Shown one piece after another: positions 1 to 27,080 of a stretch of 33,359 nucleotides of DNA (within the stretch, counting starts at the first letter, position 1; every line of letters begins with the position of its first letter). The stretch lies in the NCBI GenBank assembly GCA_003209225.1, contig QCRZ01000011.1, forward strand, positions 1 to 33,359, written 5' to 3'. Made by a program: the position numbers and the translations under genes. The stretch comes from Pelagibacteraceae bacterium AG-464-B04 (lineage in GTDB: Bacteria > Pseudomonadota > Alphaproteobacteria > Pelagibacterales > Pelagibacteraceae). The notes beneath the pieces were generated by a model. That model was not told where the DNA came from. It did no database searches and saw only the letters and a list, made by a program, of their open reading frames with translations.

Positions 1-1248
1 TATTCAATATTCAGTTTAATAAAAAATACTTTTACCAATCATCAGAACTGGAAGTTGGCCTGGAAGGATCCGGAACCAAAAAAGGAGTATGATGTTATAA
101 TAATTGGTGGAGGAGGGCATGGGCTAGCAACCGCATATTATCTTGCCAAAGAACATGGAATAACCAATGTTGCTATATTGGAGAAGGGTTGGATAGGAGG
201 AGGCAATGTTGGAAGAAACACAACAATACTAAGATCTAATTATATGTGGGATGCTAATGGGCTTTTTTATGAATATGGAATGAAGCTTTGGGAAAATCTA
301 TCTCAAGAATTAAATTATAATGTCATGTACTCTCCTAGAGGAATTATTAATCTTGCCCATTCAGACGCCCAATTAAATGTATATGCACGTAGAGGAAATT
401 CTATGAGGTTAAATGGAATTGATGCTCAAATGTTAAACAGAGAAGAGCTAAAAAAAAAAATTCCTTTTGCAGATTTTTCTTCTTCGGCTAGATTTCCAAT
501 TTTTGGTGCTTTAATGCAGCCAAGAGGTGGAACAGCCAGACACGATGCTGTTGCATGGGGATACGCAAGAGGAGCTGATGATCTAGGCGTAGATATAATT
601 CAACATTGTGAAGTTACAGGATTTGATATTCAAAATGGAAAAATCATAGGAGTACGAACATCTCGTGGAGATATTAAAACAAAAAAGATAGGATTATGTG
701 TTGCGGGTAGCACTTCCTTATTGGCAGAAAAATTAGAAATGAAACTGCCTATTGAATCTCATGTCCTCCAAGCCTGTGTATCAGAACCTGTAAAACCTTT
801 TCTTGATAATGTAGTAACTTTTGGCGCTGGCCACTTTTATTGTAGTCAATCAGACAAAGGTGAAATGGTTATGGGCGGAGATTTAGATGGTTACAATAGT
901 TATGCACAAAGAGGAAATCTTCCAACGCTGCAACATGTATTATCTGAAGGTGTTGCTATGTTTCCTAATCTAAGTAGGTTAAAAATGTTAAGAACTTGGG
1001 GAGGTATCATGGATATGTCCATGGACGGCTCTCCTATTATTGACAAAACACATATTGAAGGAGTTTATTTAAATTGTGGTTGGTGTTATGGAGGATTTAA
1101 AGCAACTCCAGTGTCGGGATTTACTTTTGCTTATACAATTGCTCAAAATAAGCTTCACTATTTAAATTCAAAATTTCGTTTAAATAGATTTAATACCGGT
1201 CATCTTATTGATGAAAAGGGTGTAGGAACAAAAACTTGGATAGGATAA
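1..1248 (+). CDS. soxB: Sarcosine oxidase beta subunit, 5'-truncated by window edge
   Basis: The ORF-track start at 55 is an internal TTG; the frame is open to base 1 (YSIFSLIKNTFTNHQNWKLAWKDPEPKKEYDV...), matching the usual SoxB N-terminus. GGGGHGLATAYYLAKEHG dinucleotide motif; GGTARHDAVAWGYARGA with the His expected to carry covalent FMN. Followed by soxD, soxA, soxG. Confidence 0.95.
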   Translation, partial: YSIFSLIKNTFTNHQNWKLAWKDPEPKKEYDVIIIGGGGHGLATAYYLAKEHGITNVAILEKGWIGGGNVGRNTTILRSNYMWDANGLFYEYGMKLWENLSQELNYNVMYSPRGIINLAHSDAQLNVYARRGNSMRLNGIDAQMLNREELKKKIPFADFSSSARFPIFGALMQPRGGTARHDAVAWGYARGADDLGVDIIQHCEVTGFDIQNGKIIGVRTSRGDIKTKKIGLCVAGSTSLLAEKLEMKLPIESHVLQACVSEPVKPFLDNVVTFGAGHFYCSQSDKGEMVMGGDLDGYNSYAQRGNLPTLQHVLSEGVAMFPNLSRLKMLRTWGGIMDMSMDGSPIIDKTHIEGVYLNCGWCYGGFKATPVSGFTFAYTIAQNKLHYLNSKFRLNRFNTGHLIDEKGVGTKTWIG

Positions 1249-1251
1249 TAA

Positions 1252-1518
1252 ATGTTAGAAATTAAATGTCCTTATTGCGGCAAAAGATCACAAAATGAAT
1301 TTTCATATGGTGGAGACGCTAGTGTTAAAAGACCAGATTTAGAAAAAGAAATATCAGATCAAGATTGGGATAATTTTGTTTATTTTAGAAATAATCCACG
1401 AGGAAAACATTCAGAGTTATGGCAACATATTTCAGGTTGTAGACAGTGGTTTAAAGTTTCAAGAGATACTGTTTCACATGAAATTTTTAAAACAGCAAAA
1501 TTGAATGAGGAATTATAA
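1252..1518 (+). CDS. soxD: Sarcosine oxidase delta subunit
   Basis: 88 aa, CPYCGKR N-terminus and H..GCRQWF C-terminal Zn-ligand pattern typical of SoxD; located between soxB and soxA. Confidence 0.95.
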   Translation: MLEIKCPYCGKRSQNEFSYGGDASVKRPDLEKEISDQDWDNFVYFRNNPRGKHSELWQHISGCRQWFKVSRDTVSHEIFKTAKLNEEL

Positions 1519-1523
1519 TTAAT

Positions 1524-4520
1524 ATGACCCAAAGTTATCGATTAGAAAATATTGGTTACATAAATAGAGATAGGAAAATTTCATTTAGGTTTAACGGAAG
1601 AAAATATTTTGGTTACAAAGGCGATACATTAGCATCGGCATTGCTTGCAAATGGCGTTCATCTTGTAGGTAGAAGCTTTAAATATCATAGACCTAGGGGA
1701 TTTCTAGGTGCTGGGGTTGATGAGCCTAATGCTAAAGTTCAATTATATAAGGAAAATAACACCGAACCAAATGCTAACGCAACAGAAGTTGAGCTAGTAG
1801 AAGGACTTATTGCAAAAAGTCAAAATTGTTGGCCTTCTGTTTCTTTTGATTTTGGTGCAATCAATAATTTATTAGGTAAATTGTTTCCAGCTGGTTTTTA
1901 TTACAAAACATTCATGTGGCCTAAAAGTTTTTGGTATAAAATTTATGAACCTATTATAAGAAAAGCAGCAGGCCTTGGTATAGCTCCTCTTAAACCTGAT
2001 CCAGATAGATATGAACACAAGTATGAATATTGTGATATTTTGGTAGTTGGTTCAGGACCATCAGGTTTATCAAGCGCACTATCAGCAGCAAAAAATGGAG
2101 CTCGAGTTATTTTAGCTGAAGACAAACCCAGATTTGGAGGAAGTTTATTAACCGACGAGGTTACAATTGGAAATAAAAAAGGAAAAGAGTGGGCAGATGA
2201 AATAATTTCTCAACTTAAATCAATGCCAAATGTTATTGTAAAAAAAAGATCTCAGGTCTTCGGATATTATGATCACAATATGATGGTAATGTGTGAAAGA
2301 ACAAAAGATCATATAGAAAATCCAAATGAATTTACTCCAAGACAAAAACTTTGGTACATACGAGCAAAAGAAGTAATTGTTTCGACAGGATCTATAGAAA
2401 GACCGATTACATTTGGCAACAATGATAGACCAGGGATATTGTTAGCATCTGCAGCCAAAGAATATATGAAGGTCTATGGAGTTCTTGTTGGCAGGAAACC
2501 AATAATATTTACTAATAATGATAGTGCATATGATACAGCGATCGAATTTAAAAAAAATGGAATTAATCCTTTAGTTCTCGATACAAGATTAGATTCAGGT
2601 AGCTCAGTAGTTGCTGAAGCGAAAAGTTTAAATATTAATATTAAATTTTCTTACGGAATAGCAAATGCAAAAGGTTATTTAAAAGTTAAATCTGCTACTA
2701 TAGGAAAATTAAATAGCGATAGATCTAGTTTTGAAAAATTAGAAAATATTACTTGTGATTGCATTTGTGTTTCTGGTAATTGGACACCCACTGTTCATTT
2801 AACATCACAATCAGGAAATAAATTAAAATTTAATGATGCTATTGATGCATTTACTCCAAATGAATCACGACAGAGCGAAACCACAGTTGGGTCTGCAAAT
2901 GGATCATTTACATTAAAAAAATCATTAGAAGAAGGATTCACAAAAGGCTTTGAATTGTCAAAAAAAATAACTAGTAAAAATGAAAAAAGCGTTTCCCCTC
3001 ATTCTAATGAAAGAAGTTATGATCAACATGATAAAATTTGGTGTATGCCACTTCCAAAAAATAAACATTATAAGAGATTTTTAGATTTTCAAAATGATGT
3101 AGCTGTTTCAGATATAGAGTTGGCTGTACGTGAAGGATACAGATCTATCGAACATGTAAAAAGATATACAACATTAGGTATGGCAACAGACCAAGGAAAG
3201 ACAAGCAATTTAAATGGGATGCAACTAGTATCCAATATTGAAAACAAAGTAATCCCTGAAGTTGGTCACACAACCTTTAGACCACCTTATACTCCTATAA
3301 CAATCGGAGCCATTGTTGGAAGAGAAGTTGGAAAACATTATCGTGCAACAAGAAAATCACCAATGCATGAATGGCATGAAAAAAATAAAGCTGTATTTGT
3401 TGATGCGGGATTATGGCTAAGACCAAGATATTATAAAAAGGGAGAAGAAACATTATTTGAAGCATCAAAACGTGAAGCAAAAAATGTAAGAAAAAATGTT
3501 GGAGTGTGTGATGTTACATCTCTTGGAAAAATCGATATAAAAGGTACAGATTCAGCTGAATTTTTGAACAGAGTTTATACGAATGCTTGGATGAAATTAC
3601 CAATTGGTAAAGCTAGATATGGAGTAATGTTAAGAGAGGACGGAATAGTTTTTGATGATGGAACCACAACCAGAATAGCAGAAAATCACTATCACATGAC
3701 AACTACAACAGCACAAGCTGCAAACGTTTTATCACATTTAGAATATTACCTGCAAGTTGTTTGGCCAGAATTAGATGTAAATGTTTTATCCACAACCGAA
3801 CAATGGGCTGGTGCAGCTTTAGCAGGACCAAATTCAAGAAAATTATTAAGTAAGCTTTTCCCGAATATTGATGTTTCAAATGAAAATTTTCCTTTTATGG
3901 GTTACAAAGAATCTGAATTATTCGGTGTTCCTGCTAGAATTTTTCGAATTTCATTTTCAGGTGAGTTAGCTTACGAAATTAATGTTGAGTCAAATTATGG
4001 AGTATCTATGTGGAAAAAAATAATTGAATTAGGTAAAGAAGTGAATATTGAGCCATATGGCACAGAAGCACTTTCTACTTTAAGAATAGAGATGGGTCAT
4101 GTTGCTGGTTCTGAAATTGATAATAGAACTATAGCTTCTGATCTTTCATTAGAAGGGATGCTAAGCAAAAAGAAAGATTTTATAGGTAAGAGATCATTAT
4201 CTAGGGAAGCTTTTACAAATCCAAATAGAGAAAAAATTGTTGGTGTAGTTCCGGTTGATAAAAAAACAATGATTCCTGAAGGCTCGCATTTAGTAAAAGA
4301 TAGCAATGCATCTTTGCCAAACCCTAAACTTGGGCATATTTCAGCTTCATGTTGGAGTGTAGAGCACAATAATCCTTTTTCATTAGCGATACTTAAAGAT
4401 GGAAAAAATAAAATAGGTGAAAAACTTTATGCACTTTCTCCATTGAAAAATAAAAGTATTCCTGTAGAGATAATTTCGTCACATTACGTTGATCCTAAAG
4501 GAGAAAGAGCAAGATCATGA
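1524..4520 (+). CDS. soxA: Sarcosine oxidase alpha subunit
   Basis: 998 aa; N-terminal ferredoxin-like segment (GDTLASALLANGVHLVGRSFKYHRPRG), NAD/FAD motif VVGSGPSGLSSALSAAKNGARV, C-terminal GcvT-like domain. Confidence 0.95.
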   Translation: MTQSYRLENIGYINRDRKISFRFNGRKYFGYKGDTLASALLANGVHLVGRSFKYHRPRGFLGAGVDEPNAKVQLYKENNTEPNANATEVELVEGLIAKSQNCWPSVSFDFGAINNLLGKLFPAGFYYKTFMWPKSFWYKIYEPIIRKAAGLGIAPLKPDPDRYEHKYEYCDILVVGSGPSGLSSALSAAKNGARVILAEDKPRFGGSLLTDEVTIGNKKGKEWADEIISQLKSMPNVIVKKRSQVFGYYDHNMMVMCERTKDHIENPNEFTPRQKLWYIRAKEVIVSTGSIERPITFGNNDRPGILLASAAKEYMKVYGVLVGRKPIIFTNNDSAYDTAIEFKKNGINPLVLDTRLDSGSSVVAEAKSLNINIKFSYGIANAKGYLKVKSATIGKLNSDRSSFEKLENITCDCICVSGNWTPTVHLTSQSGNKLKFNDAIDAFTPNESRQSETTVGSANGSFTLKKSLEEGFTKGFELSKKITSKNEKSVSPHSNERSYDQHDKIWCMPLPKNKHYKRFLDFQNDVAVSDIELAVREGYRSIEHVKRYTTLGMATDQGKTSNLNGMQLVSNIENKVIPEVGHTTFRPPYTPITIGAIVGREVGKHYRATRKSPMHEWHEKNKAVFVDAGLWLRPRYYKKGEETLFEASKREAKNVRKNVGVCDVTSLGKIDIKGTDSAEFLNRVYTNAWMKLPIGKARYGVMLREDGIVFDDGTTTRIAENHYHMTTTTAQAANVLSHLEYYLQVVWPELDVNVLSTTEQWAGAALAGPNSRKLLSKLFPNIDVSNENFPFMGYKESELFGVPARIFRISFSGELAYEINVESNYGVSMWKKIIELGKEVNIEPYGTEALSTLRIEMGHVAGSEIDNRTIASDLSLEGMLSKKKDFIGKRSLSREAFTNPNREKIVGVVPVDKKTMIPEGSHLVKDSNASLPNPKLGHISASCWSVEHNNPFSLAILKDGKNKIGEKLYALSPLKNKSIPVEIISSHYVDPKGERARS

Positions 4521-5098
4521 CACCTTTATCAGCATTAAACAAATTACATCAAAAAGGATTATTTGGTGATTATAAAAATAAAAATGAAATAATATCTGTA
4601 TCAGAATTAAAAAATTTAAAAATTATACAAATATTTCATTACAGAAAGTCAAATATAAAAATTTCTTCAATTAATTTAGATAATATAAAATTTCCAGAAA
4701 ATTCAATGCAGGTAAATTCAAATGACGAAACAAGAATTCTTTGGAATGGTCCAAATAATTGGCTGATAATCTCAAAAAATAAAGATATTTTAAAAAAAAT
4801 TAAAAAAAAATGTGATGATAAAAATTTTGCAGTAACTGATCTTTCACACTCAAGAACTGTAATTGAATTAAAAGGAAACAATTCTAAAGAAATTTTAAAA
4901 AAAGGTTGTCCAATAAATTTTAATGAATTTAAATTAAATAATTGTGCCAATTCAGTTTTTCATGGCATTACTATAACTATCGATATGACCGACGAAAATC
5001 TTGAAACTTTAAGAATTCTTGCTCTAAGAAGTTTCGGGGAATCTTTGTACCATGGCATTACAGATGCTTGTCTTGAAGATGGTTATCAAGGGATTTAA
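4517..5098 (+). CDS. soxG: Sarcosine oxidase gamma subunit
   Basis: 193 aa; ATGA overlap with the soxA stop; SoxG-like pattern (WNGPNNWLIIS..., DLSHSRTVIELKG); operon position. Confidence 0.88.
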   Translation: MTPLSALNKLHQKGLFGDYKNKNEIISVSELKNLKIIQIFHYRKSNIKISSINLDNIKFPENSMQVNSNDETRILWNGPNNWLIISKNKDILKKIKKKCDDKNFAVTDLSHSRTVIELKGNNSKEILKKGCPINFNEFKLNNCANSVFHGITITIDMTDENLETLRILALRSFGESLYHGITDACLEDGYQGI

Positions 5099-9450: not shown

Positions 9451-10473
9451 ATGAAATATATAAAAAAATTGTCTATTTCCATATTGTTCGCGTTAGGATT
9501 TACTTCTTTTAATGTAAATGCAAACGCTTATGACTGTGGAAAAGTAGTTATGGCAGACATGAATTGGGCTTCGGCTTCGTTGATGGCCAATGTAGATAAA
9601 ATTATTCTTGAAAAAGGTTGGGGTTGTGAAGTTGAGTTAATCCCAGGAGCAACGATGCCAACTTTTGCGTCAATGAATGAAAAAGGAGCGCCAGATGTTG
9701 CTGCTGAGCAATGGGCAAATGCTGTAGCTAATCCTTTAGCAAAAGCAGTAGGAGAAGGTCGTTTACATATAGCAAACGAAGCGCCTATAAAAGGTCTTGG
9801 TGAAGGATGGTGGGTAACACCGGGCACACTAAAAAGACACCCTGAGTTAAAAACTGCTTTAGATATTTTAGCTCATCCAGAATTATTTCCAGATGCAGAA
9901 GATTCTTCAAAAGGTGCATTCGTTGGTTGCCCTGCAGGTTGGGGTTGTCAATTAGCAAATGCTAATCTTTTCAGAGCTTTCGAAATGGAAAATAAAGGTT
10001 GGGTATTAGTTGATCCTGGTTCTGCGGCAGGACTTGATGGTTCTATAGCTAAAGCAGCTGAAAGTGATAAAAATTGGTTTGGCTATTATTGGAATCCGAC
10101 AGCAATCATAGGTAAATACGGTATGGTGCCAATGGATTTTGGAGTTCCATTTGCTGGATCTGAAAATTGGGATGGCTGTATAGTAAAACCAGAACAAGAA
10201 TGTGCTGATCCAAAACCATCTGCATGGACACAGTCAGTTGTTAATACGGTAGTTACAGATAAATTTAAAAAAAATGCTGGAAAACACGTTATGAAATTTT
10301 TATCTAAACGAACGTATCCTGGAGAAGTTATGAACGCTATGCTTGTTTATATGCAAGACGAACAAGCTGAGGGCGCTGATGCAGCTATACATTTTTTAAA
10401 GAATCATGAAGACGTATGGACTGCTTGGCTTGGAGATGCTGTAGGAAATAAAGTTAGACAAGGAATTAAGTAA
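9451..10473 (+). CDS. proX: Glycine betaine/proline-type ABC transporter substrate-binding protein
   Basis: 340 aa; signal peptide; OpuAC/ProX-type fold (DMNWASASLMANVDKIILEKGWGCEVELIPG, EGWWVTPG, WFGYYWNPTAIIGKYGM). Followed by proW and proV. Confidence 0.92.
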   Translation: MKYIKKLSISILFALGFTSFNVNANAYDCGKVVMADMNWASASLMANVDKIILEKGWGCEVELIPGATMPTFASMNEKGAPDVAAEQWANAVANPLAKAVGEGRLHIANEAPIKGLGEGWWVTPGTLKRHPELKTALDILAHPELFPDAEDSSKGAFVGCPAGWGCQLANANLFRAFEMENKGWVLVDPGSAAGLDGSIAKAAESDKNWFGYYWNPTAIIGKYGMVPMDFGVPFAGSENWDGCIVKPEQECADPKPSAWTQSVVNTVVTDKFKKNAGKHVMKFLSKRTYPGEVMNAMLVYMQDEQAEGADAAIHFLKNHEDVWTAWLGDAVGNKVRQGIK

Positions 10474-10498
10474 GAGACTTTGATTATTTAAATTTTTT

Positions 10499-10535
10499 AA
10501 CAAACCTATTAACTAAAAATGTTAGTAGGTTTGTT
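10499..10535 (+). terminator. Strong intercistronic hairpin between proX and proW
   Basis: aacaaacctattaac (10499-10513), loop taaaaat, gttagtaggtttgtt (10521-10535): 15-bp stem with one G-U wobble; no long U-tract, so attenuator/mRNA stabiliser is as likely as a terminator. Confidence 0.6.
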
Positions 10536-10560
10536 ATGTGTATCATATAAATAGGTAAAA

Positions 10561-11445
10561 ATGGATTTTTTTGCTGACTTTCCCACAATGGAACGCCAAG
10601 ATTTGCGCGATTTTAAAAAATTCATAGATTTTGCTTTTAGATCATTTGCACGTACTTATGGCGATGCTATTGAGTCTTTTTTTCATCCACTGTTAATGTT
10701 TTTAGTTTGGTTAGAAAAACTAATGATAAACACACCTTGGCCAATAGTTATTATGGCTATTGCAGGATTAGCTTGGTTGGGTTCAAGGAGCTGGAAATTA
10801 GTTTTGGGAACGATCATCTCATTTTTAGTTATCGGATATTTTGGAATGTGGAAAGATACAATGGCAACAATGGCAATCATTGCAGTTGCTACAATCGTAT
10901 GTATTGGTGTTGGTATACCTTTTGGAATACTAATGGCACGATCAAATCGTATACAATCAATAATAACTCCAGTTTTAGATGTAATGCAAACAATCCCAAG
11001 TTTTGTTTACTTAATTCCAATACTTATGCTTTTAGGCATTGGTAAGGTACCAGGTCTTATTGCTGTTTGTATTTATGCAATTCCTCCTATTGTACGCTTA
11101 ACAAACCTAGGAATTCGTGAGGTAGATAAAGAAGCTTTGGAAGCTATAGATGCATTCGGTGCTACAACATGGCAAAGATTAACAAAAGTTCAAATTCCTC
11201 TTGCTTTACCAACTATTTTTGCTGGTGTTAACCAAACTATTATGATGGCACTCGCAATGGTAGTTATTGCTTCTATGATAGGAGTTAAAGGTTTAGGAGT
11301 GCCCGTGCTTCGTGCAATATCAAATCAATACTTAGCGCTGGGATTAATGAATGGGTTAGCCATTGTAGCATTAGCTATTATATTTGATAGGGTTTGCCAA
11401 CACTATGGAAAAAGAATTCAAAAACATCGAGAAGGCAAACATTAA
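10561..11445 (+). CDS. proW: Glycine betaine ABC transporter permease
   Basis: 294 aa multi-TM; IPFGILMARSNR, DVMQTIPSFVYLIPILMLLGIGKVPGLIAVCIYAIPPIVRLTNLGIREV (EAA-type motif region). Confidence 0.93.
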   Translation: MDFFADFPTMERQDLRDFKKFIDFAFRSFARTYGDAIESFFHPLLMFLVWLEKLMINTPWPIVIMAIAGLAWLGSRSWKLVLGTIISFLVIGYFGMWKDTMATMAIIAVATIVCIGVGIPFGILMARSNRIQSIITPVLDVMQTIPSFVYLIPILMLLGIGKVPGLIAVCIYAIPPIVRLTNLGIREVDKEALEAIDAFGATTWQRLTKVQIPLALPTIFAGVNQTIMMALAMVVIASMIGVKGLGVPVLRAISNQYLALGLMNGLAIVALAIIFDRVCQHYGKRIQKHREGKH

Positions 11446-12467
11446 TGAGCGCAATCAAAATTAAAATTGATTCCTTATATAAAATTTTTGGAAAAAATCC
11501 TAAGGAAGCGATTGAGCATGTAAAAAGTGGTATTGGCAAAGATGAGCTTTTAGAAAAACATAATCATGTCTTAGGACTTCAAGATATTAATCTTGATATA
11601 TATGAAAAAAATATTCAAGTAATTATGGGTTTATCTGGATCTGGAAAATCTACTTTAATCAGACATATTAATCGCCTTATAGAACCTACCGAAGGGAAAA
11701 TCAAAGTAGATGAGTTTGATGTTATGGATTATGACAAAAATGCTTTAAGAAAATTTAGAAGGCAAAAAACTGCAATGGTTTTCCAGCGTTTTGCTTTAAT
11801 GCCTCATCTTACTGTTATTAAAAATGTTTGTATTGGATTAGATATGCAAGGAATTAACCCTGATGAAAGTAAAAAAAGATCAAAACATTGGATTGAGAAA
11901 GTTGGCTTAAATGGTTACGAAGAAAGGTACCCACAACATTTATCAGGTGGAATGCAACAACGTGTTGGACTTGCTAGAGCATTAACCAATGATGCGGATA
12001 TTCTATTAATGGATGAAGCCTTTAGTGCTTTAGACCCTTTAATTAGAAAAGATATGCAGGACATACTTTTAAATCTTCAATCTGAACTAAACAAAACAGT
12101 AGTCTTTATTACCCATGATCTAGATGAAGCTTTGAAGTTAGGTGATAGAATAGCAATACTCAAAGATGGTAGAATGGATCAAGAAGGTTTGCCAGCAGAT
12201 ATTTTATTAAACCCAAAAACAGATTATGTAAAAAGATTTGTAGAAGATGTAAATCGCCCCCGTGTTCTTAGAGCAAAAAATATTATGGAAAAAGTAAACG
12301 GACAAGATCTATCGAACGCTATTATAGTTGATGAAAATGATTTTATTGAGTCCTTTATAGACAAGGTTCTCATAAAACAACCATCCATAATTATAGTAAA
12401 AAATAAAGAAAATAAAGGTGAGGGGTATATATCTCCACAAAGACTTTCTAATATTTTAAAAAAGTAA
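11445..12467 (+). CDS. proV: Glycine betaine ABC transporter ATP-binding protein
   Basis: Walker A GLSGSGKST, signature LSGGMQQRVGLARAL, Walker B ILLMDEAFSALDPLIR. ATG at 11445 overlaps the proW stop (TAATG); track start 11394 is too early. Confidence 0.93.
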   Translation: MSAIKIKIDSLYKIFGKNPKEAIEHVKSGIGKDELLEKHNHVLGLQDINLDIYEKNIQVIMGLSGSGKSTLIRHINRLIEPTEGKIKVDEFDVMDYDKNALRKFRRQKTAMVFQRFALMPHLTVIKNVCIGLDMQGINPDESKKRSKHWIEKVGLNGYEERYPQHLSGGMQQRVGLARALTNDADILLMDEAFSALDPLIRKDMQDILLNLQSELNKTVVFITHDLDEALKLGDRIAILKDGRMDQEGLPADILLNPKTDYVKRFVEDVNRPRVLRAKNIMEKVNGQDLSNAIIVDENDFIESFIDKVLIKQPSIIIVKNKENKGEGYISPQRLSNILKK

Positions 12468-12483
12468 CTTATATTGATTTAAT

Positions 12484-13467
12484 ATGAGTGAAATAAAAAA
12501 TTACCGAATAGATAATCTTCAATACTGTAATTGGTCTAAAGAAATATTCAAAATAAACAACGAAGCTAAATTAGATGCGGTTCAAGTAACAATTGCTTAC
12601 CACGAGAATTTTGATGAAGTTAAAAAAAACATAGAAATTTGGAATAAGTACTTTAAAGATTATAAAGATTTAATTTTTCAAGGAAAAACATTTCGAGATA
12701 TAGAAAAAGCAAAATTGGATAATAAAACAGCAATTTTTTTTGGTTTTCAAAATTGCTCTCCTATCGGAGATAATATCGGTTTAGTTGAAGAAATCCATAA
12801 ATTAGGAATAATTTTTATGCAACTAACTTATAACAATCAATCTTTATTAGCTACAGGTTGCTACGAAGAAAATGATAGTGGAGTTACAAGAATGGGAAAA
12901 GAAGTTATCAAGGAAATGAATAGATTGGGAGTTGTGGTAGACATGTCCCACTCAGCGGAAAAATCTACATTAGATGCAATTAAGATATCTTCTAGGCCCA
13001 TAGCAATCACGCACGCTAACCCATCTTTTTGGTTTGAAGCAAAAAGAAATAAATCAAACGAAGTTTTAAAAGCATTAGCAAAATCTGGTGGAATGATTGG
13101 GCTTTCCTTATATCCTCATCATTTAAAAAATAAATCAAATTGTACTTTAGAAAGTTTTTGCGTAATGGCAGCAAAAACTGCAGATCTTATAGGAGACAAA
13201 CATATAGGAATAGGATCAGACCTTTGCATTGGACATCCTAACTCAGTTGTTGAGTGGATGAGAAACGGAAAATGGACAAAAACAAAGGACTATGGAGAGG
13301 GAAGTTCTTCAGATGCAAATTTTCCTAAACAGCCTAGCTGGTTTGAAGATGCAAGAGGATTTAAAAATTTAGAACAAGGTTTAAAGAAAGTAGGATTTCA
13401 AGATGCTGAAGTAAATGGCATACTAGGAAATAATTGGTATAATTTTTACCAGGGTATAAATATTTGA
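12484..13467 (+). CDS. M19 (renal dipeptidase)-like protein with degenerate metal site
   Basis: 327 aa; M19 features VVVDMSHSAEKSTLDAI, IAITHANPSFW, KHIGIGSDLCIG; lacks N-terminal HxD and has Q in FFGFQN where classical members have Glu. Confidence 0.75.
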   Translation: MSEIKNYRIDNLQYCNWSKEIFKINNEAKLDAVQVTIAYHENFDEVKKNIEIWNKYFKDYKDLIFQGKTFRDIEKAKLDNKTAIFFGFQNCSPIGDNIGLVEEIHKLGIIFMQLTYNNQSLLATGCYEENDSGVTRMGKEVIKEMNRLGVVVDMSHSAEKSTLDAIKISSRPIAITHANPSFWFEAKRNKSNEVLKALAKSGGMIGLSLYPHHLKNKSNCTLESFCVMAAKTADLIGDKHIGIGSDLCIGHPNSVVEWMRNGKWTKTKDYGEGSSSDANFPKQPSWFEDARGFKNLEQGLKKVGFQDAEVNGILGNNWYNFYQGINI

Positions 13468-15136: not shown

Positions 15137-15742
15137 ATGCAGTCACTTAGTGAAATTGACACAACATCAAAAAGAGCATCTAAGGCTGCTGGTTTTTCTT
15201 GGGGTATCGCAGAAGAAATAGGTAAAGCTATTAGAAATTTAGAACTATTTGGTTTACCAGGCATTATAAATTTAAATTTATATTTAAAAAAAATAAAAAA
15301 AAAACACCCTGAAAAGTTAAAAAAAATAGAGAAAGAAAATAAAAATAAAGAATTATGTCCAATTTATTGTGGTGTTGCTTTTTTAGATCAATGTAAGCAT
15401 TTAGAAACTTTAAGAACTATTAAATTTTATAATATTAACTATCCTATGTTAATCTTACCTTTTGTCAGTAAAGCCTCTGAGATTTTGGGAAAAAAAATAT
15501 TAATACAGTATAATAAATCTAGTTTTCTTGTTAATTTTAATAAATCCATTTTATCTAAAAATATAGAAACACAAATTGTCACCTTAGCTAATGAGATTAG
15601 TATTGTTTTTTTAGAAAATAAAAATTCATTTTCGGATCAAGAATGGAAGGAGATTTATAAGCTTTCCGAAGAAACTTTCGTTGAAGAGTCTGAAAGTTTA
15701 AAAACAAAAGGTGCTGGTGCTGGTCTAACCGATAACGATTAG
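15137..15742 (+). CDS. DUF3726-like protein
   Basis: 201 aa; SLSEIDTTSKRASKAAGFSWGIAEEIGKAIRNLELFGLPGI N-terminus and GAGAGLTDND C-terminus recalled as typical of DUF3726. Confidence 0.65.
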   Translation: MQSLSEIDTTSKRASKAAGFSWGIAEEIGKAIRNLELFGLPGIINLNLYLKKIKKKHPEKLKKIEKENKNKELCPIYCGVAFLDQCKHLETLRTIKFYNINYPMLILPFVSKASEILGKKILIQYNKSSFLVNFNKSILSKNIETQIVTLANEISIVFLENKNSFSDQEWKEIYKLSEETFVEESESLKTKGAGAGLTDND

Positions 15743-19200: not shown

Positions 19201-20637
19201 ATGCTTAATAAAAAAAATTTTTATATTAATGGACAGTGGGTTGCCTCAAAAAACTCAAAAGAAATTCAAGTAATAGATCCTGCAACTGAGAAAAATTGTG
19301 CAGTTATATCGTTAGGAGGCACTGATGATGTTAATGCAGCGGTTGTTGCTGCAAAAAAAGCTTTTGAAAGTTGGGGATTTTCATCAAAAGAAGAAAGAGT
19401 TGAATTGTTAGAAAAACTTTATGTAGTTTACAAAAAAAGATGGGCTGAAATAGCAGAAGCTATTACTTTAGAAATGGGTGCTCCAAAAGACTTTTCATCA
19501 CAACTTCAAACAGGAACTGGTGCAAGTCATATAAAATCTTTTACTGGATATTTAAAAGAATTTAAATTTGAGAAAATACTTGGTGAGCATGCAAAAAACC
19601 AAAATATTTTATATGAACCAAAAGGAGTTTGTGCACTAATTACTCCTTGGAATTGGCCAATGAACCAGGTTTGTCTAAAAGTAATACCGGCACTTGCAGC
19701 CGGTTGTACGATGATATTAAAACCATCAGAATTAGCACCTTTATCATCCATGATACTTGCTGAAATGATCGATGAAGTAAAATTTCCAGCTGGAGTTTTT
19801 AATTTAGTAAACGGCGATGGAGCGACGACAGGCAATGCTCTTACTAGTCATCCAGATGTAAACATGATTTCATTTACAGGATCTACTAGAGCAGGTGCTT
19901 TAATTTCTCAAAATGCAGCAAAGGACTTTAAAAGAATAAGTCTAGAGTTAGGGGGAAAAGGGGCAAACATTATATTCAAAGATGCAGACCCTGAGGCCGT
20001 TGAAAGAGGAGCTTTAAGATGTTTTAGAAACTCTGGACAATCTTGTAATGCTCCGACAAGAATGTTGGTTGAAAAATCAATGTATAGCGAAGCTGTAGAA
20101 AGAGTAAAAAATTTTGCTAATAAAACAAAAGTTGATTTACCAGAAAAAGAAGGTGATCATATTGGTCCGGTAATCTCCGAGACTCAATATAATAAAATTC
20201 AAACATTAATTAAAAAAGGAATAGAAGAGGGGGCAAAATTGGTTGCCGGAGGGGCTGGAAAACCAGAGGGTTTAGAAAAAGGTTATTTTGTTAAGCCCAC
20301 AGCTTTTGCTGATGTTAACAATCAAATGGAAATTGCTAGAACAGAAATCTTTGGACCTGTTTTGTCAATTATTCCTTTTGAAACAGAAGAAGAGGCAATC
20401 AAAATTGCAAATGATACACCTTATGGTCTTACAAATTATATTCAAACCCAAGACCAGAAAAAAGCAAATAGAGTTGCAAGAAAATTAAGATCAGGAATGG
20501 TTGATGTTAACGGCGCAGGCATAGCAGTCGATGCTCCATTTGGAGGTTACAAACATTCTGGGATTGGCCGTGAAGCTGGTGCTATCGGAATAGAAGAATT
20601 TTTAGAAGTCAAAACAGTTGGTGGCTGGAACGACTAA
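19201..20637 (+). CDS. NAD(P)-dependent aldehyde dehydrogenase
   Basis: 478 aa; ITPWNWPMNQVCLKVIPALAAGCTMILKPSE, SFTGSTRAG, ISLELGGKGANIIF, FRNSGQSCNAPTR catalytic Cys. Confidence 0.93.
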   Translation: MLNKKNFYINGQWVASKNSKEIQVIDPATEKNCAVISLGGTDDVNAAVVAAKKAFESWGFSSKEERVELLEKLYVVYKKRWAEIAEAITLEMGAPKDFSSQLQTGTGASHIKSFTGYLKEFKFEKILGEHAKNQNILYEPKGVCALITPWNWPMNQVCLKVIPALAAGCTMILKPSELAPLSSMILAEMIDEVKFPAGVFNLVNGDGATTGNALTSHPDVNMISFTGSTRAGALISQNAAKDFKRISLELGGKGANIIFKDADPEAVERGALRCFRNSGQSCNAPTRMLVEKSMYSEAVERVKNFANKTKVDLPEKEGDHIGPVISETQYNKIQTLIKKGIEEGAKLVAGGAGKPEGLEKGYFVKPTAFADVNNQMEIARTEIFGPVLSIIPFETEEEAIKIANDTPYGLTNYIQTQDQKKANRVARKLRSGMVDVNGAGIAVDAPFGGYKHSGIGREAGAIGIEEFLEVKTVGGWND

Positions 20638-20989: not shown

Positions 20990-22219
20990 TCATGCTTTAA
21001 TTTTTTTTATTCTACTCCCTACACCATACTCTTCTTTTTTATTAAAATCTTTACTATTTAATTTAGAAAGTTCTTTAATTCTAAGGCCATTAGTATCTAT
21101 AGTAGGTGAGCCATTTTTTATCATTCCTTGATGTCTAGAATACACTGCTTTCTTTTTATTAACCTGATGGGGTTGGAAATCATCAATATCTTCTATTTTT
21201 AATTTATCTCCAATATGAATAAAACCAGCTTTGGCTGCGTCATTCATCAAATCTAATCCTTTTTTTGTTCTAATAATTGCGGCGTTGAAACCTTCATCTT
21301 CTCCTTTAGGTGAACCACCTCTCCAAGTATCCAAAGCAGCTACGTCTGCGCTTTCACCAATGGCGTCGGGACATATTTTACATCTGAAAGGAACTCTCCA
21401 TGTAGATTCTTCTCCCCAAAAAGAATTATATTCTCTATCATATTCACGGCCATCTTTTGTTTTGATGTACATTCTGCCAGGATTTCCAAATCCTCTATAT
21501 CTAAAGATAGACAATTCATCTTCTTTAACCTTAAAGCTTTCAATAAAATCTTGCGCTTTTGTAAATTCTGCAAAGCCTCCACAGACTAAGGTTAGCAAAT
21601 ATTTACAAAGTTCGTTTACTCTAGAATCAGTTTTAGATAGCAGTCTGATTGCACTGATATCACAAGGTTTACCAACAAAAGCAAAAGGTTGGTTTAAATC
21701 AAGCGCTTCATGAAATCTGTCCAAAGGTGCTGCGGGTCCATACCTTGATCTACTTTCACCGCCTAAAAGTTCTTCTTTATTATAACTAAATTTACACAAA
21801 CTACGCATCGGTTTTTTTGGATCAGCAGCTGTATGCATAATAAATTTAACTTTTTTAGATTCGAGCAAGTAAATGGATAAGCCATTGAGCAAACCACCTG
21901 TCGAACTTTCAAATCTTATTTTTTTATCAGTAGACCAGGTATAACAAAGAGATAAATAATAACCCCAAACAAGATTATGTTTAGTACTTTGATCAACGTT
22001 TTCTTTTGGAAGACCCTCAACAATCGTGCCAGGACAAACATTACGTATTTTTTCAAATATTTCTGGTGTAATTTTACTGATTTCCTTTGGTTCAAGTCTT
22101 CCCTTTGAGGTCATAGAAATTTCAATTTTATCTTTCCCAGTAATACTTTGACAAAGGCCACAACCAATGCAAAGACCATTATCAACTATATCTGACAGTT
22201 GATTTACTGAACGATTCAT
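20990..22219 (-). CDS. FrhB-like (coenzyme F420 hydrogenase/dehydrogenase beta subunit family) Fe-S oxidoreductase
   Basis: 409 aa; GLCIGCGLCQ, FESSTGGLLNGLSIYLLE, GKPCDISAIRLL, FRCKICPDAIGESADVAALDTWRGGSPKGEDEGFNAAIIRTKKG. Confidence 0.82.
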   Translation of the reverse strand: MNRSVNQLSDIVDNGLCIGCGLCQSITGKDKIEISMTSKGRLEPKEISKITPEIFEKIRNVCPGTIVEGLPKENVDQSTKHNLVWGYYLSLCYTWSTDKKIRFESSTGGLLNGLSIYLLESKKVKFIMHTAADPKKPMRSLCKFSYNKEELLGGESRSRYGPAAPLDRFHEALDLNQPFAFVGKPCDISAIRLLSKTDSRVNELCKYLLTLVCGGFAEFTKAQDFIESFKVKEDELSIFRYRGFGNPGRMYIKTKDGREYDREYNSFWGEESTWRVPFRCKICPDAIGESADVAALDTWRGGSPKGEDEGFNAAIIRTKKGLDLMNDAAKAGFIHIGDKLKIEDIDDFQPHQVNKKKAVYSRHQGMIKNGSPTIDTNGLRIKELSKLNSKDFNKKEEYGVGSRIKKIKA

Positions 22220-22225
22220 TAAAAA

Positions 22226-22963
22226 TTAATTTTTATAAGACGGATCAATTTTTTCACACTTACGCTTTAATGCGGGCCATTCATTTATTCCAGGTGCAAA
22301 AGCTTCATATTGTTTTTGAGATTGTTCCCAAAAAGTTTTTTCTGCATAATCCAATTTGAGACCAGAACCTTGTGCATTGACTGCAACTTCACACATGCGG
22401 ATTGCATAATACATATTCATAAAAGCTTCTCCTGCAGTTTCGCCCACAGTAAGCAATCCATGATTACGCATAATTAAAACTTTATTGTCACCAAGATGTT
22501 TCGCAATTCTATGTCTTTCATCAATATCAACTGAAAGACCTTCCCAATCATGATAGCCAACTTTACCATAAAGCATTGAAGAATCTTGAACTAAGTGAGG
22601 TATACCATCTTTAAGTGCTGTAGCTGCAAGTGCAGTCGGTGGGTGAGTATGAAATACAAATTTATTTTTTGGATGGTTTAAATGAACCGCACTATGAATA
22701 ACAAATCCCGCAGTATTAACATCTGAAGGACCCTCTATAACTTTACCGTTTTCATCTACTTTAATAAGATTTGATGCTGTTACCTCTTCGTACAAAAGTC
22801 CAAAACGATGCATAAAAAAAGTGTGATCAGTACCAGGAGTTCTAGCTGTTATATGATTCCACACAGTATCATCCCACCCCATCATGTGAGTAAGACGATA
22901 CATGGCAGCAAGATCAACCCTTACTTCCCATTCTTCAGCACTAATATCGTTTCGTATATTCAT
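22226..22963 (-). CDS. Class II aldolase/adducin family protein
   Basis: 245 aa; WNHITARTPGTDHTFFMHRFGLLYEEVTASNLIKVD, FHTHPPTALAATAL, IMRNHGLLTVGETAGEAFMNMYY. Confidence 0.88.
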   Translation of the reverse strand: MNIRNDISAEEWEVRVDLAAMYRLTHMMGWDDTVWNHITARTPGTDHTFFMHRFGLLYEEVTASNLIKVDENGKVIEGPSDVNTAGFVIHSAVHLNHPKNKFVFHTHPPTALAATALKDGIPHLVQDSSMLYGKVGYHDWEGLSVDIDERHRIAKHLGDNKVLIMRNHGLLTVGETAGEAFMNMYYAIRMCEVAVNAQGSGLKLDYAEKTFWEQSQKQYEAFAPGINEWPALKRKCEKIDPSYKN

Positions 22964-22965
22964 GT

Positions 22966-23817
22966 TTAGTCAGCTAAGCCGTCTGGTCTAGCTTTATTTC
23001 TTTCTATATGAATTGGTAATACTTTTCCATATATAGCTTTTGAATGTTCAGGAGTATTTACTCTCCAAGGATCCAAAACATAAGCCGGTATACAAAGGTA
23101 TCTGGAATGATTTCCTTCTATTTTTGTAACACGATGAAGTGTAAATCGTCCTTTAAATATTTGAAGGTCACCTGGTTCTAATTTTAATTGACGAACTCTT
23201 TTACGGTCTCCATCAAGTACTTTTTTAACTTCTTCCAAATTTTCATTTCCTGGTTCGCGTATGTTTGGGCAATATTCAAATATTCCACCTTTCTCAGGTT
23301 TTTGTATCATGAAACTTAAAGTAAACTCACAACTATCGAAATGCCATGGAAGAATACCGTCTGGTTTCATAACATTATAAGCGTGACAAGCTAAAGGATC
23401 GGCCCATCGATAAATTGGCGACATTCCAAGACAAGCGGACACAAAATTTAAAAGTTCATCTTGTTCATAAAGAAATTTCATCTCTGAATCTTTTGGAAAA
23501 ACATCCGAGTTTAAATATCCATTATAACGATCCATAAATATTCTTTTTGGATGATCTTTAGGTAAGGAAGGATCGTCTTTTGAATATAAATATGCGTTTA
23601 TATTTTGTTTTGACATATAAACTTCATCGAGTTGTTTTTCTAACTCTGTATTCATTATTTTTAAAGAATTGGGTAAAATAAAATTAGGAATAGTAACACA
23701 ACTAAACTGATCTAAATCACTTTTACATTTTTTTATTAATTCTTTTATTGATGGAGAATTTAAATCTTGGATTGGATATTTTTTAAGATCGACAATAGTT
23801 TCTAATCTATTATTCAT
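22966..23817 (-). CDS. 2-oxoglutarate/Fe(II) oxygenase-like (PhyH/ArpA-like) protein
   Basis: 283 aa; HxD in LPWHFDSCEFTLSFMIQ, distal His/Arg in FTLHRVTKIEGNHSRYLCIPAY. Confidence 0.7.
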   Translation of the reverse strand: MNNRLETIVDLKKYPIQDLNSPSIKELIKKCKSDLDQFSCVTIPNFILPNSLKIMNTELEKQLDEVYMSKQNINAYLYSKDDPSLPKDHPKRIFMDRYNGYLNSDVFPKDSEMKFLYEQDELLNFVSACLGMSPIYRWADPLACHAYNVMKPDGILPWHFDSCEFTLSFMIQKPEKGGIFEYCPNIREPGNENLEEVKKVLDGDRKRVRQLKLEPGDLQIFKGRFTLHRVTKIEGNHSRYLCIPAYVLDPWRVNTPEHSKAIYGKVLPIHIERNKARPDGLAD

Positions 23818-23823
23818 TTTTAA

Positions 23824-25059
23824 TTACAAATCTTCTAATGGATGATGAGACATTAACTCAAGTCCATTTTCGCCAACTAAATATTGTTGTTCTAGTTTTA
23901 CTCCTTCTTTACCACTGACTTTTCCGATGTAAGATTCAACTGTAATAGTCATATTTTTTTCAAAACAACCTTCTCTTTGACCACCATCAGTTGGGTATCT
24001 TATCATTGGCCATTCATCACAAAGACCGATTCCGTGAACCATACATGAATATCTATTTCCATAATATTCTTCTGGAAGTTTCCATGATTTTTCAGTGAAT
24101 TCTTTAAAAGACGTTCCAGGTTTTATTAATCTAGAATTATGGTTTATATGTTCAACAGCCATTAAATATAATTTTTTCTGCTCTTCATTAAATTTGTGGC
24201 TTTCAACAAAAGAACGAGAAATATCTGCACAATAACCGTAAGGGCCAACCATATCAGTATCAAAAGATACCATTTCTCCACTTTGAATAATTTTGTTGCT
24301 ACTTTCTTGCATCCAAGGATTTGTTCTTTGACCTGAAGATAAAATTCTGCATTCAATCCATTCACCACCATGTTCAATATTAGTTTTGTGTAAGATCGAC
24401 CAAAGCTCGTCTTCAGTCATTCCTGCTTTTAATTCTTCTCTCATTTTGTTAATGCCAATTTCGCAAACCTCAATTGCAGCTTTCATGCATTTTAGCTCAT
24501 CTGGTGATTTAATGACTCTAGCTTGTTCAAGAACCAATTTAGCATCAACTACCTCAATTCCTACATTATTCAAAGCTGTTACAGCAGGACCATTAACAAC
24601 ATCAATCGCTATTTTTCTATTTTTAAAGAATGAATTAGATAAATCTTTAATTTCATTAATCCATTTTTTCAATTGGGTTCCCGCTTGATCTCCATTACTA
24701 AAATAATCCCAAGTTATTGCAGGCCTTATTTCATCAATCAAATTTAAGTGTTTAGATAATCCCTCACAATTAAAATATTCATAAAGAATTATAGGTCCGT
24801 TAACAGGCACAAAACAATAACGAGTTAAATTATGCATATTATAAACGCTCATGTTAACCGTATCTAGTGCATATCTAACATTAACAGGGTCAAATAATAT
24901 ACAAGCTTCAAGATTATTTTTTTCTAACTCTTTTTTTACTCTATCTAATCTATAAGATCTAAGTTTAGTAAAATCTATTTCATCTTCTTTTAATCTTTTC
25001 TTTGTTATAAAATTTGAAAGAGGTTTTGTATTCGGGGAAATTTTTCTTTTAAACTTCAT
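23824..25059 (-). CDS. M24 (creatinase/aminopeptidase P fold) protein, DddP-like
   Basis: 411 aa; FDPVNVRYALDTVNMSVYNMHN, GGEWIECRILSSGQRTNPWMQES, SFDTDMVGPYGYCADISRSF, MVHGIGLCDEWPMIRYP, TVESYIG, KLEQQYLV resemble the DMSP lyase DddP, with its metal ligands and CDEW Asp present. Confidence 0.72.
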   Translation of the reverse strand: MKFKRKISPNTKPLSNFITKKRLKEDEIDFTKLRSYRLDRVKKELEKNNLEACILFDPVNVRYALDTVNMSVYNMHNLTRYCFVPVNGPIILYEYFNCEGLSKHLNLIDEIRPAITWDYFSNGDQAGTQLKKWINEIKDLSNSFFKNRKIAIDVVNGPAVTALNNVGIEVVDAKLVLEQARVIKSPDELKCMKAAIEVCEIGINKMREELKAGMTEDELWSILHKTNIEHGGEWIECRILSSGQRTNPWMQESSNKIIQSGEMVSFDTDMVGPYGYCADISRSFVESHKFNEEQKKLYLMAVEHINHNSRLIKPGTSFKEFTEKSWKLPEEYYGNRYSCMVHGIGLCDEWPMIRYPTDGGQREGCFEKNMTITVESYIGKVSGKEGVKLEQQYLVGENGLELMSHHPLEDL

Positions 25060-25060
25060 A

Positions 25061-26257
25061 TTAAACCAGATTGGTTGCTATCCATTTATGAAAATGATGA
25101 GTAGGATTATCCATAACAGGTGAAAAATTACCACCATTATAGGAAGGTGAATTTCTTCCTTCTTGCATTCCCTCGATAATACCTACATCTTCTGACTGTA
25201 CACCATGCCAAAGTTTCATATTCTGTTTTCTTAAATTTTTGAATTTTTTTGAGTTAGCAGCTGCATTTCTTACATAATAAATTTCCATATGCTCAATAGT
25301 AAATTCATGATTAACTGGTTCCAGCCAATAAGCATAATAGTGATCTTTATGTATTCCAAGCATTACGTTTGGAAAGAGAGCAACATACTCAGCAATATTT
25401 AATTTATCTTTTGGCCAGTTTGGAAAACATGGAAATTTAAGTTTACCTTTAAATCTTGGATTGTAAACAACAGTACCTTGTCCAGCAAATCTATTAGGCA
25501 AACCTTCGATGTGATAATGATCACTAATTTTAGAGTAAGAATTTAATCCTGGATGCACCCATGGAAGGTGATAGCTTTCACAATAATTTTCAATTGCAAA
25601 CTTCCAATTACATTTGGCTGTTAATTTAAAATAACCAAAATCTTTTGAATGTTGAATCAATTTTTGATCTTTTTCTGACCAAAATTTAGACCAACGATCT
25701 TGTAAAGGTTTAATATATTGTTCAAAAGGAATCTCATTATTAGAAATGTTTACCATAATCATGTCTAGCCAAAGATATGAACGAATTTCTTTAAGTCCGC
25801 TTTTATCTTTATTAAAATCTTTAGATTCATGCTTGTTCATTCCACCCAAATGAGGAGTAGCTACTAGCTTTCCTTCAAGATTATAGGACCAAGAATGATA
25901 AGGGCATCTTAATAGATTTTTAATAGAACATTTTTTTTGTAGAATTCTATAACCTCTGTGACTACAAACATTGTGATAAACTCTAATTTGATTTTTATTA
26001 GTTCTTAATAAAATCAAAGGAATTCCTAGCAAATCAAAAGGTTTTGCGTCCCCTAGATTGGGAATTGAGCTAGCAACACCAACAACTACCCACTTATCTT
26101 CAAATATTTTTTTTCTCTCTATATATGTATATTCTTTGCTATTATAGCATTCATTAGGAAGGCCATGAGCTTTACTAATAGGTTTGTTTACAACATCAAG
26201 TTTTTCTTTATTTATAATGTCATAAATATTTCCGTGACCATTAGCCTTCGAATTCAT
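25061..26257 (-). CDS. Rieske non-heme iron oxygenase alpha subunit (quaternary-amine-type group)
   Basis: 398 aa; Rieske CSHRGYRILQKKCSIKNLLRCPYHSWSY (CxH-x17-CxxH), mononuclear iron region WKFAIENYCESYHLPWVHPGL with bridging Glu, distal Asp in GVQSEDVGIIEGMQ. Confidence 0.88.
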   Translation of the reverse strand: MNSKANGHGNIYDIINKEKLDVVNKPISKAHGLPNECYNSKEYTYIERKKIFEDKWVVVGVASSIPNLGDAKPFDLLGIPLILLRTNKNQIRVYHNVCSHRGYRILQKKCSIKNLLRCPYHSWSYNLEGKLVATPHLGGMNKHESKDFNKDKSGLKEIRSYLWLDMIMVNISNNEIPFEQYIKPLQDRWSKFWSEKDQKLIQHSKDFGYFKLTAKCNWKFAIENYCESYHLPWVHPGLNSYSKISDHYHIEGLPNRFAGQGTVVYNPRFKGKLKFPCFPNWPKDKLNIAEYVALFPNVMLGIHKDHYYAYWLEPVNHEFTIEHMEIYYVRNAAANSKKFKNLRKQNMKLWHGVQSEDVGIIEGMQEGRNSPSYNGGNFSPVMDNPTHHFHKWIATNLV

Positions 26258-26295
26258 ATTAAAAAACCTAACATTTTAATATGAATAGGCAATAG

Positions 26296-26309
26296 ATTTC
26301 AGTTGAAAT
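26296..26309. promoter_or_regulatory. 14-bp palindrome in divergent intergenic region, candidate operator
   Basis: ATTTCAgtTGAAAT between the divergent Rieske and MTHFR-like genes. Confidence 0.35.
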
Positions 26310-26351
26310 TTCTGGACATCCCCATAGTTACGCTGGTATATCCCGGTGATT

Positions 26352-27080
26352 ATGAATTTTTCATTAGAGATTACTATAAAGACTGATCTATCAGACCTGC
26401 CTAAGGTAAAAGATGTATATATTACGATGTTACCCGGTGATGATTTTAAAATGGTAGCAAACAAAGCTAAAGAATTGGCACAATCAGGTTTTAATCCAGT
26501 GCCTCATTTTCCAGCACGATCAATAAAAAATATGGCTGAATTAAAAGATTTTGTGAATAGAAGTAAAGATGGAGGCATAAAACAAGCTCTTGTAATAGGG
26601 GGTAGTGCGCAACCTGTTGGAGATTTTCATTCTTCTCTCCAGTTATTAGAGACAGGATTATTCGAGGGGTTGAAGATAGGAATTGCTGGACATCCAGATG
26701 GGTCCCCTGATATATCCGACTCAGATTTAGAAAAAGCTATGATTAGTAAAAAACCTTATGCAGACTATATAGTTACTCAATGGTTATTAAACACCAATTC
26801 TATAGCTGAGTTTGTTTCTAAACAAACGTTACCAGTTCATGTGGGAATTACTGGGCCTTTAAAAATAAGCAGTTTGCTTAAATTTGCTAATATTGTTGGG
26901 GCAAAAAATTCTATTAATTTTCTTAAATCTAACGCAACAAAAGCTATAGATTTATTAAAACCAAGAGACCCAAATAACATAATAGAAAAACTTAAAGGAA
27001 AAACAGAGAATTTTCATATTTATACTTTTGGCGGTCTAAAAGAAACTAACAAATGGTTAATGGAGAATAATTATGCCTAA
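26352..27080 (+). CDS. Methylenetetrahydrofolate reductase-like protein
   Basis: About 242 aa; SLEIT, GFNPVPHFPARS, KQALVIGGS, KIGIAGHPDGSPD, YIVTQ, LPVHVGITGP follow the MetF fold order. ATG 26352 with ggtga upstream preferred over GTG 26346. Confidence 0.75.
   Translation: MNFSLEITIKTDLSDLPKVKDVYITMLPGDDFKMVANKAKELAQSGFNPVPHFPARSIKNMAELKDFVNRSKDGGIKQALVIGGSAQPVGDFHSSLQLLETGLFEGLKIGIAGHPDGSPDISDSDLEKAMISKKPYADYIVTQWLLNTNSIAEFVSKQTLPVHVGITGPLKISSLLKFANIVGAKNSINFLKSNATKAIDLLKPRDPNNIIEKLKGKTENFHIYTFGGLKETNKWLMENNYA

Follow-up and report, generated by a model that had tools for sequence, protein, structure and literature searches.

The M19-fold protein encoded in the window, by which we mean the whole 33,359-nucleotide stretch of SAR11 (Pelagibacteraceae) DNA analysed here, is probably a repurposed enzyme of small-molecule catabolism, perhaps of homarine breakdown, rather than a peptidase. 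This reading is adopted because the loss of half of its metal site is fixed across relatives and because the gene always occurs with two partner genes whose annotations carry no function. The protein lacks half of the binuclear metal site, namely the HxD motif and the bridging Glu, as well as the catalytic His; the residues found there instead are mostly fixed (Leu, Gln, Tyr). The M19 gene, a gene for a 556-aa protein and a DUF3726 gene are contiguous in the window and form one unit. The source genome comprises 0.97 Mb in 50 contigs and is 63% complete. The genes of the window that are needed here are:

55–5098, + strand: SoxBDAG-like operon (sarcosine oxidase family), found near the cassette in 16 of 33 SAR11 loci
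9451–12467, + strand: OpuAC-type ABC transporter, an optional neighbour (binding protein 9451–10473, permease 10561–11445, ATPase 11394–12467)
12484–13467, + strand: M19-fold protein with a non-canonical 'Q/Y' active site, ATG start, 327 aa
13464–15134, + strand: 556-aa protein, near-constant partner, whose start overlaps the M19 stop (13464–13467)
15137–15742, + strand: DUF3726 protein of 201 aa, constant partner, two bases after 15134
19201–20637, + strand: aldehyde dehydrogenase, which in some SAR11 loci comes immediately after DUF3726

The open reading frame at 12484–13467 matches the Pfam family PF01244 with 244 bits (cut-off 26, E 2.9e-72) over residues 27–321, in agreement with a sequence-only reading that had assigned an M19 protein with an altered metal site to exactly these coordinates. 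Its product is the sole M19 protein detected in the 63% complete assembly. Among solved structures, its best relative is PDB 2I5G, named 'amidohydrolase' (E 5.9e-56, residues 8–321); for the canonical dipeptidases 3ID7 and DPEP1, the E-values are about 1e-17 to 1e-18. Against orthologues of 84–88% identity, dN/dS is about 0.07–0.08, and the gene is thus under strong purifying selection. One-off decay of the site is ruled out by 169 relatives with the same site together with the dN/dS of about 0.07, and for the same two reasons the gene is not a decaying one.

In the M19 membrane (renal) dipeptidase DPEP1, H20 and D22 are the metal ligands of the HxD motif, E125 is the bridging Glu and H152 is the catalytic His. 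H198 and H219 form the second-site His pair, R230 binds the substrate carboxylate, and D288 serves as catalytic base and ligand. The equivalents of H20, D22, E125, H152, H198, H219, R230 and D288 in the window M19 are L12, Y14, Q89, Y116, H156, H177, R188 and D246:

12517–12525, + strand: L12-x-Y14, in place of the canonical H-x-D (H20, D22); from family alignment and motif
12748–12750, + strand: Q89, replacing the bridging Glu E125 in the motif FFGFQN; Gln in 169/169, DPEP1 alignment
12829–12831, + strand: Y116, replacing the catalytic His152 (LTYN, LTHS in DPEP1); Tyr in 169/169, DPEP1 alignment
12949–12951, + strand: H156, the retained H198 equivalent, motif MSHS; family alignment
13012–13014, + strand: H177, the retained H219 equivalent, motif ITHA; family alignment
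13045–13047, + strand: R188, the retained R230 equivalent; family alignment
13219–13221, + strand: D246, the retained D288 equivalent, motif GIGSD; family and DPEP1 alignments

The pairing of H20/D22 with L12/Y14 was taken from the family alignment and the motif, because the DPEP1 match begins downstream of those positions; farther along that match, query residue 246 lies opposite chain residue 288. The barrel fold and H198, H219, R230 and D288 are common to the window M19 and DPEP1/3ID7, whereas H20, D22, E125 and H152 are replaced in the former, which therefore has no binuclear site of the known kind. The sequence-only reading had already seen that HxD is absent from the N-terminus (IDNLQYCNW), that Gln takes the place of the bridging Glu in FFGFQN, and that the His, His and Asp of MSHS, ITHA and GIGSD remain. 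All three observations hold, although the replacement of His152 by Tyr116 had been overlooked. The alignment with DPEP1 and PA5396-type proteins, which it had proposed as a check, places replacements at E125 and H152 and gives a site identical to that of 2I5G. The 169 family members compared come from SAR11, roseobacters, rhizobia, Vibrio, Pseudomonas and Burkholderiales and include PDB 2I5G. Among them Leu is present in 168, the Y14 position is variable, and Q, Y, H, H, R and D are each invariant.

This altered site is absent from canonical M19 proteins of the same class, and 'Q/Y' M19s are common in Alphaproteobacteria. A further 40 alphaproteobacterial M19s, hand-picked so that their proportions are no estimate of natural frequency, divided into HxD/E/H (13), HxD/E/W (6), no HxD/E/Y (6), no HxD/Q/Y (13) and single patterns (2), and all 40 retained H-H-R-D. 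In this set, the loss of HxD accompanies Tyr and mostly also Gln. The six proteins that retain Glu but lack HxD and carry Tyr at the His152 position (L229, L234, L235, L255, L256 and L261) are possible intermediates between canonical and Q/Y forms, judging by their residues. Clades with the same Q/Y site have quite different neighbours, namely dgcAB, ethanolamine ammonia-lyase or hydantoinase genes, and thus the site alone does not fix the substrate. A Q/Y M19 of Azospirillum (L122, 8001–8930) lies near ethanolamine ammonia-lyase genes and one of Salipiger (L124, 8001–8918) near hydantoinase/oxoprolinase genes, which suggests that the class may serve several amine or amide pathways. The class already has a solved structure (2I5G) and many unnamed members; our literature search found no published description of it.

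PDB 2I5G, which we take to be a PA5396-type M19 protein, shares with the window M19 the fold, full-length similarity and the identical site L/x/Q/Y/H/H/R/D. Identity between the PA5396 type and the window type is about 31–35%. Phylogenetic analysis of 97 M19 proteins separates the window clade, joined by distant relatives from rhizobia (100/97), from the 2I5G/PA5396 clade (100/99). Genomes with close relatives of 2I5G carry the order M19–DUF5943–DgcA–DgcB, in which DgcA is an Oxidored_FMN protein and DgcB a DUF3483 protein, and the arrangement pepD_hp_dgcAB_fixAB is described in Vibrio natriegens and P. aeruginosa (PMC12093977). The statement in the sequence-only reading that PA5396-type genes sit beside dimethylglycine demethylation genes was accordingly accurate. 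The window M19, in contrast, is accompanied by the 556-aa protein and DUF3726, with no DUF5943 or DgcAB alongside. From the tree clades and the differing partners, the analogy is true of a cousin but fails for the window M19, and orthology with PA5396 is ruled out on the same grounds. Identity of the 556-aa protein with the dgcAB-linked PA5397-type gene is also ruled out, the latter encoding a DUF5943 protein of about 180 aa. A search for literature on PA5396 or 2I5G, including metal content or activity of 2I5G, found none.

The partner genes are tied closely to the window-type M19. The 556-aa gene adjoins it in 80 of 80 SAR11-type loci, and the complete M19–556-aa–DUF3726 core is present in all 33 SAR11 loci with full flanks. 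In a class sample of 289 genomes, the window-type M19 occurs in 39 and the 556-aa gene in 39, with both in 37 (expected 5.3; hypergeometric P 7e-42, with genomes counted as independent and phylogeny uncorrected). The two genes lie at most 2.5 kb apart in 33 of these 37 genomes. No relative of the 556-aa protein was found by sequence in Pfam, NCBIfam or PDB. Its AlphaFold2 model (pLDDT 77, pTM 0.82) matched no PDB fold at E 0.001 or better, making it a candidate for a new family or fold. In Foldseek, the DUF3726 model (pLDDT 88) hit Ldh_2 dehydrogenases at probabilities reaching 1.0 and E about 0.01–0.02, and hhalign aligned its N-terminal 52 columns with Ldh_2 (E 2.8e-4, probability 41%). From these matches, DUF3726 is likely to be a shortened protein remotely related to the Ldh_2 dehydrogenase fold (malate/ureidoglycolate/piperideine-2-carboxylate).

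Other genes around the core are optional. The sequence-only reading had noted that the M19 gene adjoins a betaine transporter, which is correct in the window (9451–12467). An OpuAC betaine-type transporter is near the cassette in only 13 of the 33 fully flanked SAR11 loci, and a fixed link as a general rule is thereby ruled out. Together with this transporter, the window carries BHMT (5793) and a DMGDH-like enzyme (6876) upstream; BHMT and DMGDH are near M19 in only 11 of the same 33 loci. The SoxBDAG-like operon could be an N-methylglutamate dehydrogenase rather than a sarcosine oxidase. The aldehyde dehydrogenase at 19201–20637 is a possible, though not conserved, member of the cassette. The aldehyde dehydrogenase and Ldh_2 of the cassette are missing from most SAR11 loci, and neither Ldh_2 nor the roseobacter-type aldehyde dehydrogenase was found in the source genome at 63% completeness. 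Farther downstream, a second cluster (20990–28512) contains genes for FrhB-like, class II aldolase, HalD-like, DddP-like M24 (360 bits, where the DddP cut-off is 600), GbcA-like Rieske oxygenase and GcvT-like proteins. It is partly conserved in two other loci (L040 and L041) and possibly represents another osmolyte pathway.

Fuller cassettes are found in other bacteria. Ruegeria TM1040, Sulfitobacter, Vibrio, Pseudomonas MPC6 and Aminobacter carry LysR–aldehyde dehydrogenase–M19–BCCT–556-aa–DUF3726, in some cases followed by Ldh_2. The transporter varies among BCCT, OpuAC-type ABC and SBP_bac_8-type ABC. RidA-type imine/enamine deaminase genes adjoin the cassette, and Ldh_2 or RidA is often part of it outside SAR11. 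The cassette aldehyde dehydrogenase scores highest against 2,5-dioxovalerate (ketoglutarate semialdehyde) dehydrogenases, below the family cut-offs. In Ruegeria, the cassette adjoins a SoxBDAG-like operon and an AraC-type regulator, an arrangement resembling the mgd-tmaR pair of R. pomeroyi (PMC13390433), with Sox and Mgd not distinguishable here. The pSymB locus of Sinorhizobium holds distant copies of the M19 (40%) and 556-aa (24%) proteins. The cassette of Pseudomonas sp. MPC6 (L117) is carried, along with a Rieske oxygenase and one more aldehyde dehydrogenase, on a predicted conjugative plasmid and may therefore move horizontally.

The make-up of the cassette (LysR, aldehyde dehydrogenase, transporter, RidA and Ldh_2) would fit a pathway for a pyridinium betaine, with homarine as the best candidate. 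Homarine is N-methylpicolinate, an algal compound. Ferrer-Gonzalez et al. (2026) reportedly described a homABCDER operon of five genes and a regulator, present in Rhodobacterales and SAR11, with N-methylglutamate as the product. Compared with the operon so reported, the Rhodobacterales cassette has a matching make-up and SAR11 has mainly the three-gene core. By this match, the cassette may be the hom operon, and the M19/556-aa/DUF3726 genes may already have been described as part of homarine catabolism. The modelled resemblance of DUF3726 to the Ldh_2 fold, of which piperideine-2-carboxylate reductase is a member, would also count for a homarine-type pathway. N-methylglutamate dehydrogenase participates in homarine catabolism, according to PMC13390433, which cites Nat Microbiol 2026;11:1531. 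No mention of homarine or of the cassette genes was found in the Ruegeria literature examined.

Our leading but tentative proposal, held at a little under even confidence, is that the window M19 is a hydrolase of the M19 fold, no longer a dipeptidase, which cleaves a C–N bond in an intermediate arising from an N-methylated pyridinium or another betaine; the best candidate pathway leads from homarine to N-methylglutamate. A loss of metal ligands of this kind has a counterpart in E. coli NagA, a mononuclear amidohydrolase that lacks the HxH of the first metal site. Both proteins have lost the first metal site and kept the second-site His pair and Asp, but the window M19 has Gln for the bridging Glu and belongs to another subfamily with another substrate. 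It would hold at most one metal ion (at His156, His177 and perhaps Gln89) or none. Asp246 would act as the base activating water, Tyr116 would take over from His152, and a carboxylate would be held by Arg188. The bond cleaved would be that of an N-formyl group or a cyclic enamide/lactam in a carboxylated intermediate. On the way from homarine (C7) to N-methylglutamate (C6), one ring carbon has to leave, plausibly as formate, and cleavage of an N-formyl intermediate by the window M19 would account for it. A carboxylated substrate ending as a glutarate is suggested by the invariant Arg and by the dioxovalerate-type aldehyde dehydrogenase, which fits because the oxidation of a five-carbon semialdehyde to a glutarate would need such an enzyme.

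The same cassette and type of hydrolase might serve a different N-methylated substrate, such as trigonelline or another pyridinium or cyclic betaine. The changing transporters (BCCT, OpuAC-type or SBP_bac_8-type ABC) and the distant M19 and 556-aa copies on pSymB favour this, but the marine, SAR11-rich spread and the aldehyde dehydrogenase fit the homarine route well, and we consider another substrate unlikely. A role in glycine betaine/dimethylglycine demethylation, of the sort that PA5396 may have next to dgcAB, is suggested by BHMT, the DMGDH-like enzyme and the transporter directly upstream in the window, and by the dgcAB-linked relatives (PMC12093977). However, BHMT and DMGDH recur in only a third of the SAR11 loci, the clade and the partner (556-aa instead of DUF5943) differ from the dgcAB type, and the BHMT, DMGDH-like and SoxBDAG-like enzymes of the window already cover the demethylation steps, which makes this role a quite unlikely one. 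The sequence-only reading had favoured a non-peptidase role in this metabolism. Its first half stands, a non-peptidase role being likely; its second half, the betaine or dimethylglycine link, is weak, possible but not the best reading.

Two further explanations concern catalysis itself. That the protein is a scaffold or non-catalytic subunit for the 556-aa and DUF3726 proteins would agree with the lost canonical ligands and the nearly invariant gene order. However, Q, Y, H, H, R and D, which a scaffold would not need, are the same throughout the 169 proteins, even in clades without the 556-aa partner, and we regard such a role as very unlikely. The protein could also be a true dipeptidase with a single metal ion, given its peptidase fold and retained Arg and Asp. 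With HxD, Glu and His152 all replaced, and with the gene linked to small-molecule transporters and oxidoreductases rather than to peptide uptake, this is highly improbable.

A wider proposal, which we hold to be rather doubtful, is that the large Q/Y branch of M19, hitherto annotated as dipeptidases, is a distinct class of one-metal or metal-free C–N hydrolases of N-methylated carboxylates, and that its SAR11 member would form, with the new-fold 556-aa protein and the Ldh_2-like DUF3726, a new module for N-methylpyridinium ring opening. If the cassette is indeed for homarine breakdown, the window M19 may supply a hydrolytic step; if it is not, an undescribed pathway remains. The three-gene core, two of whose proteins have no assigned function, gives SAR11, which ranks among the most abundant bacteria of the ocean, a testable catabolic function. 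Many 'membrane dipeptidase' proteins of marine and soil Alphaproteobacteria share the altered site, and their annotation is probably wrong.
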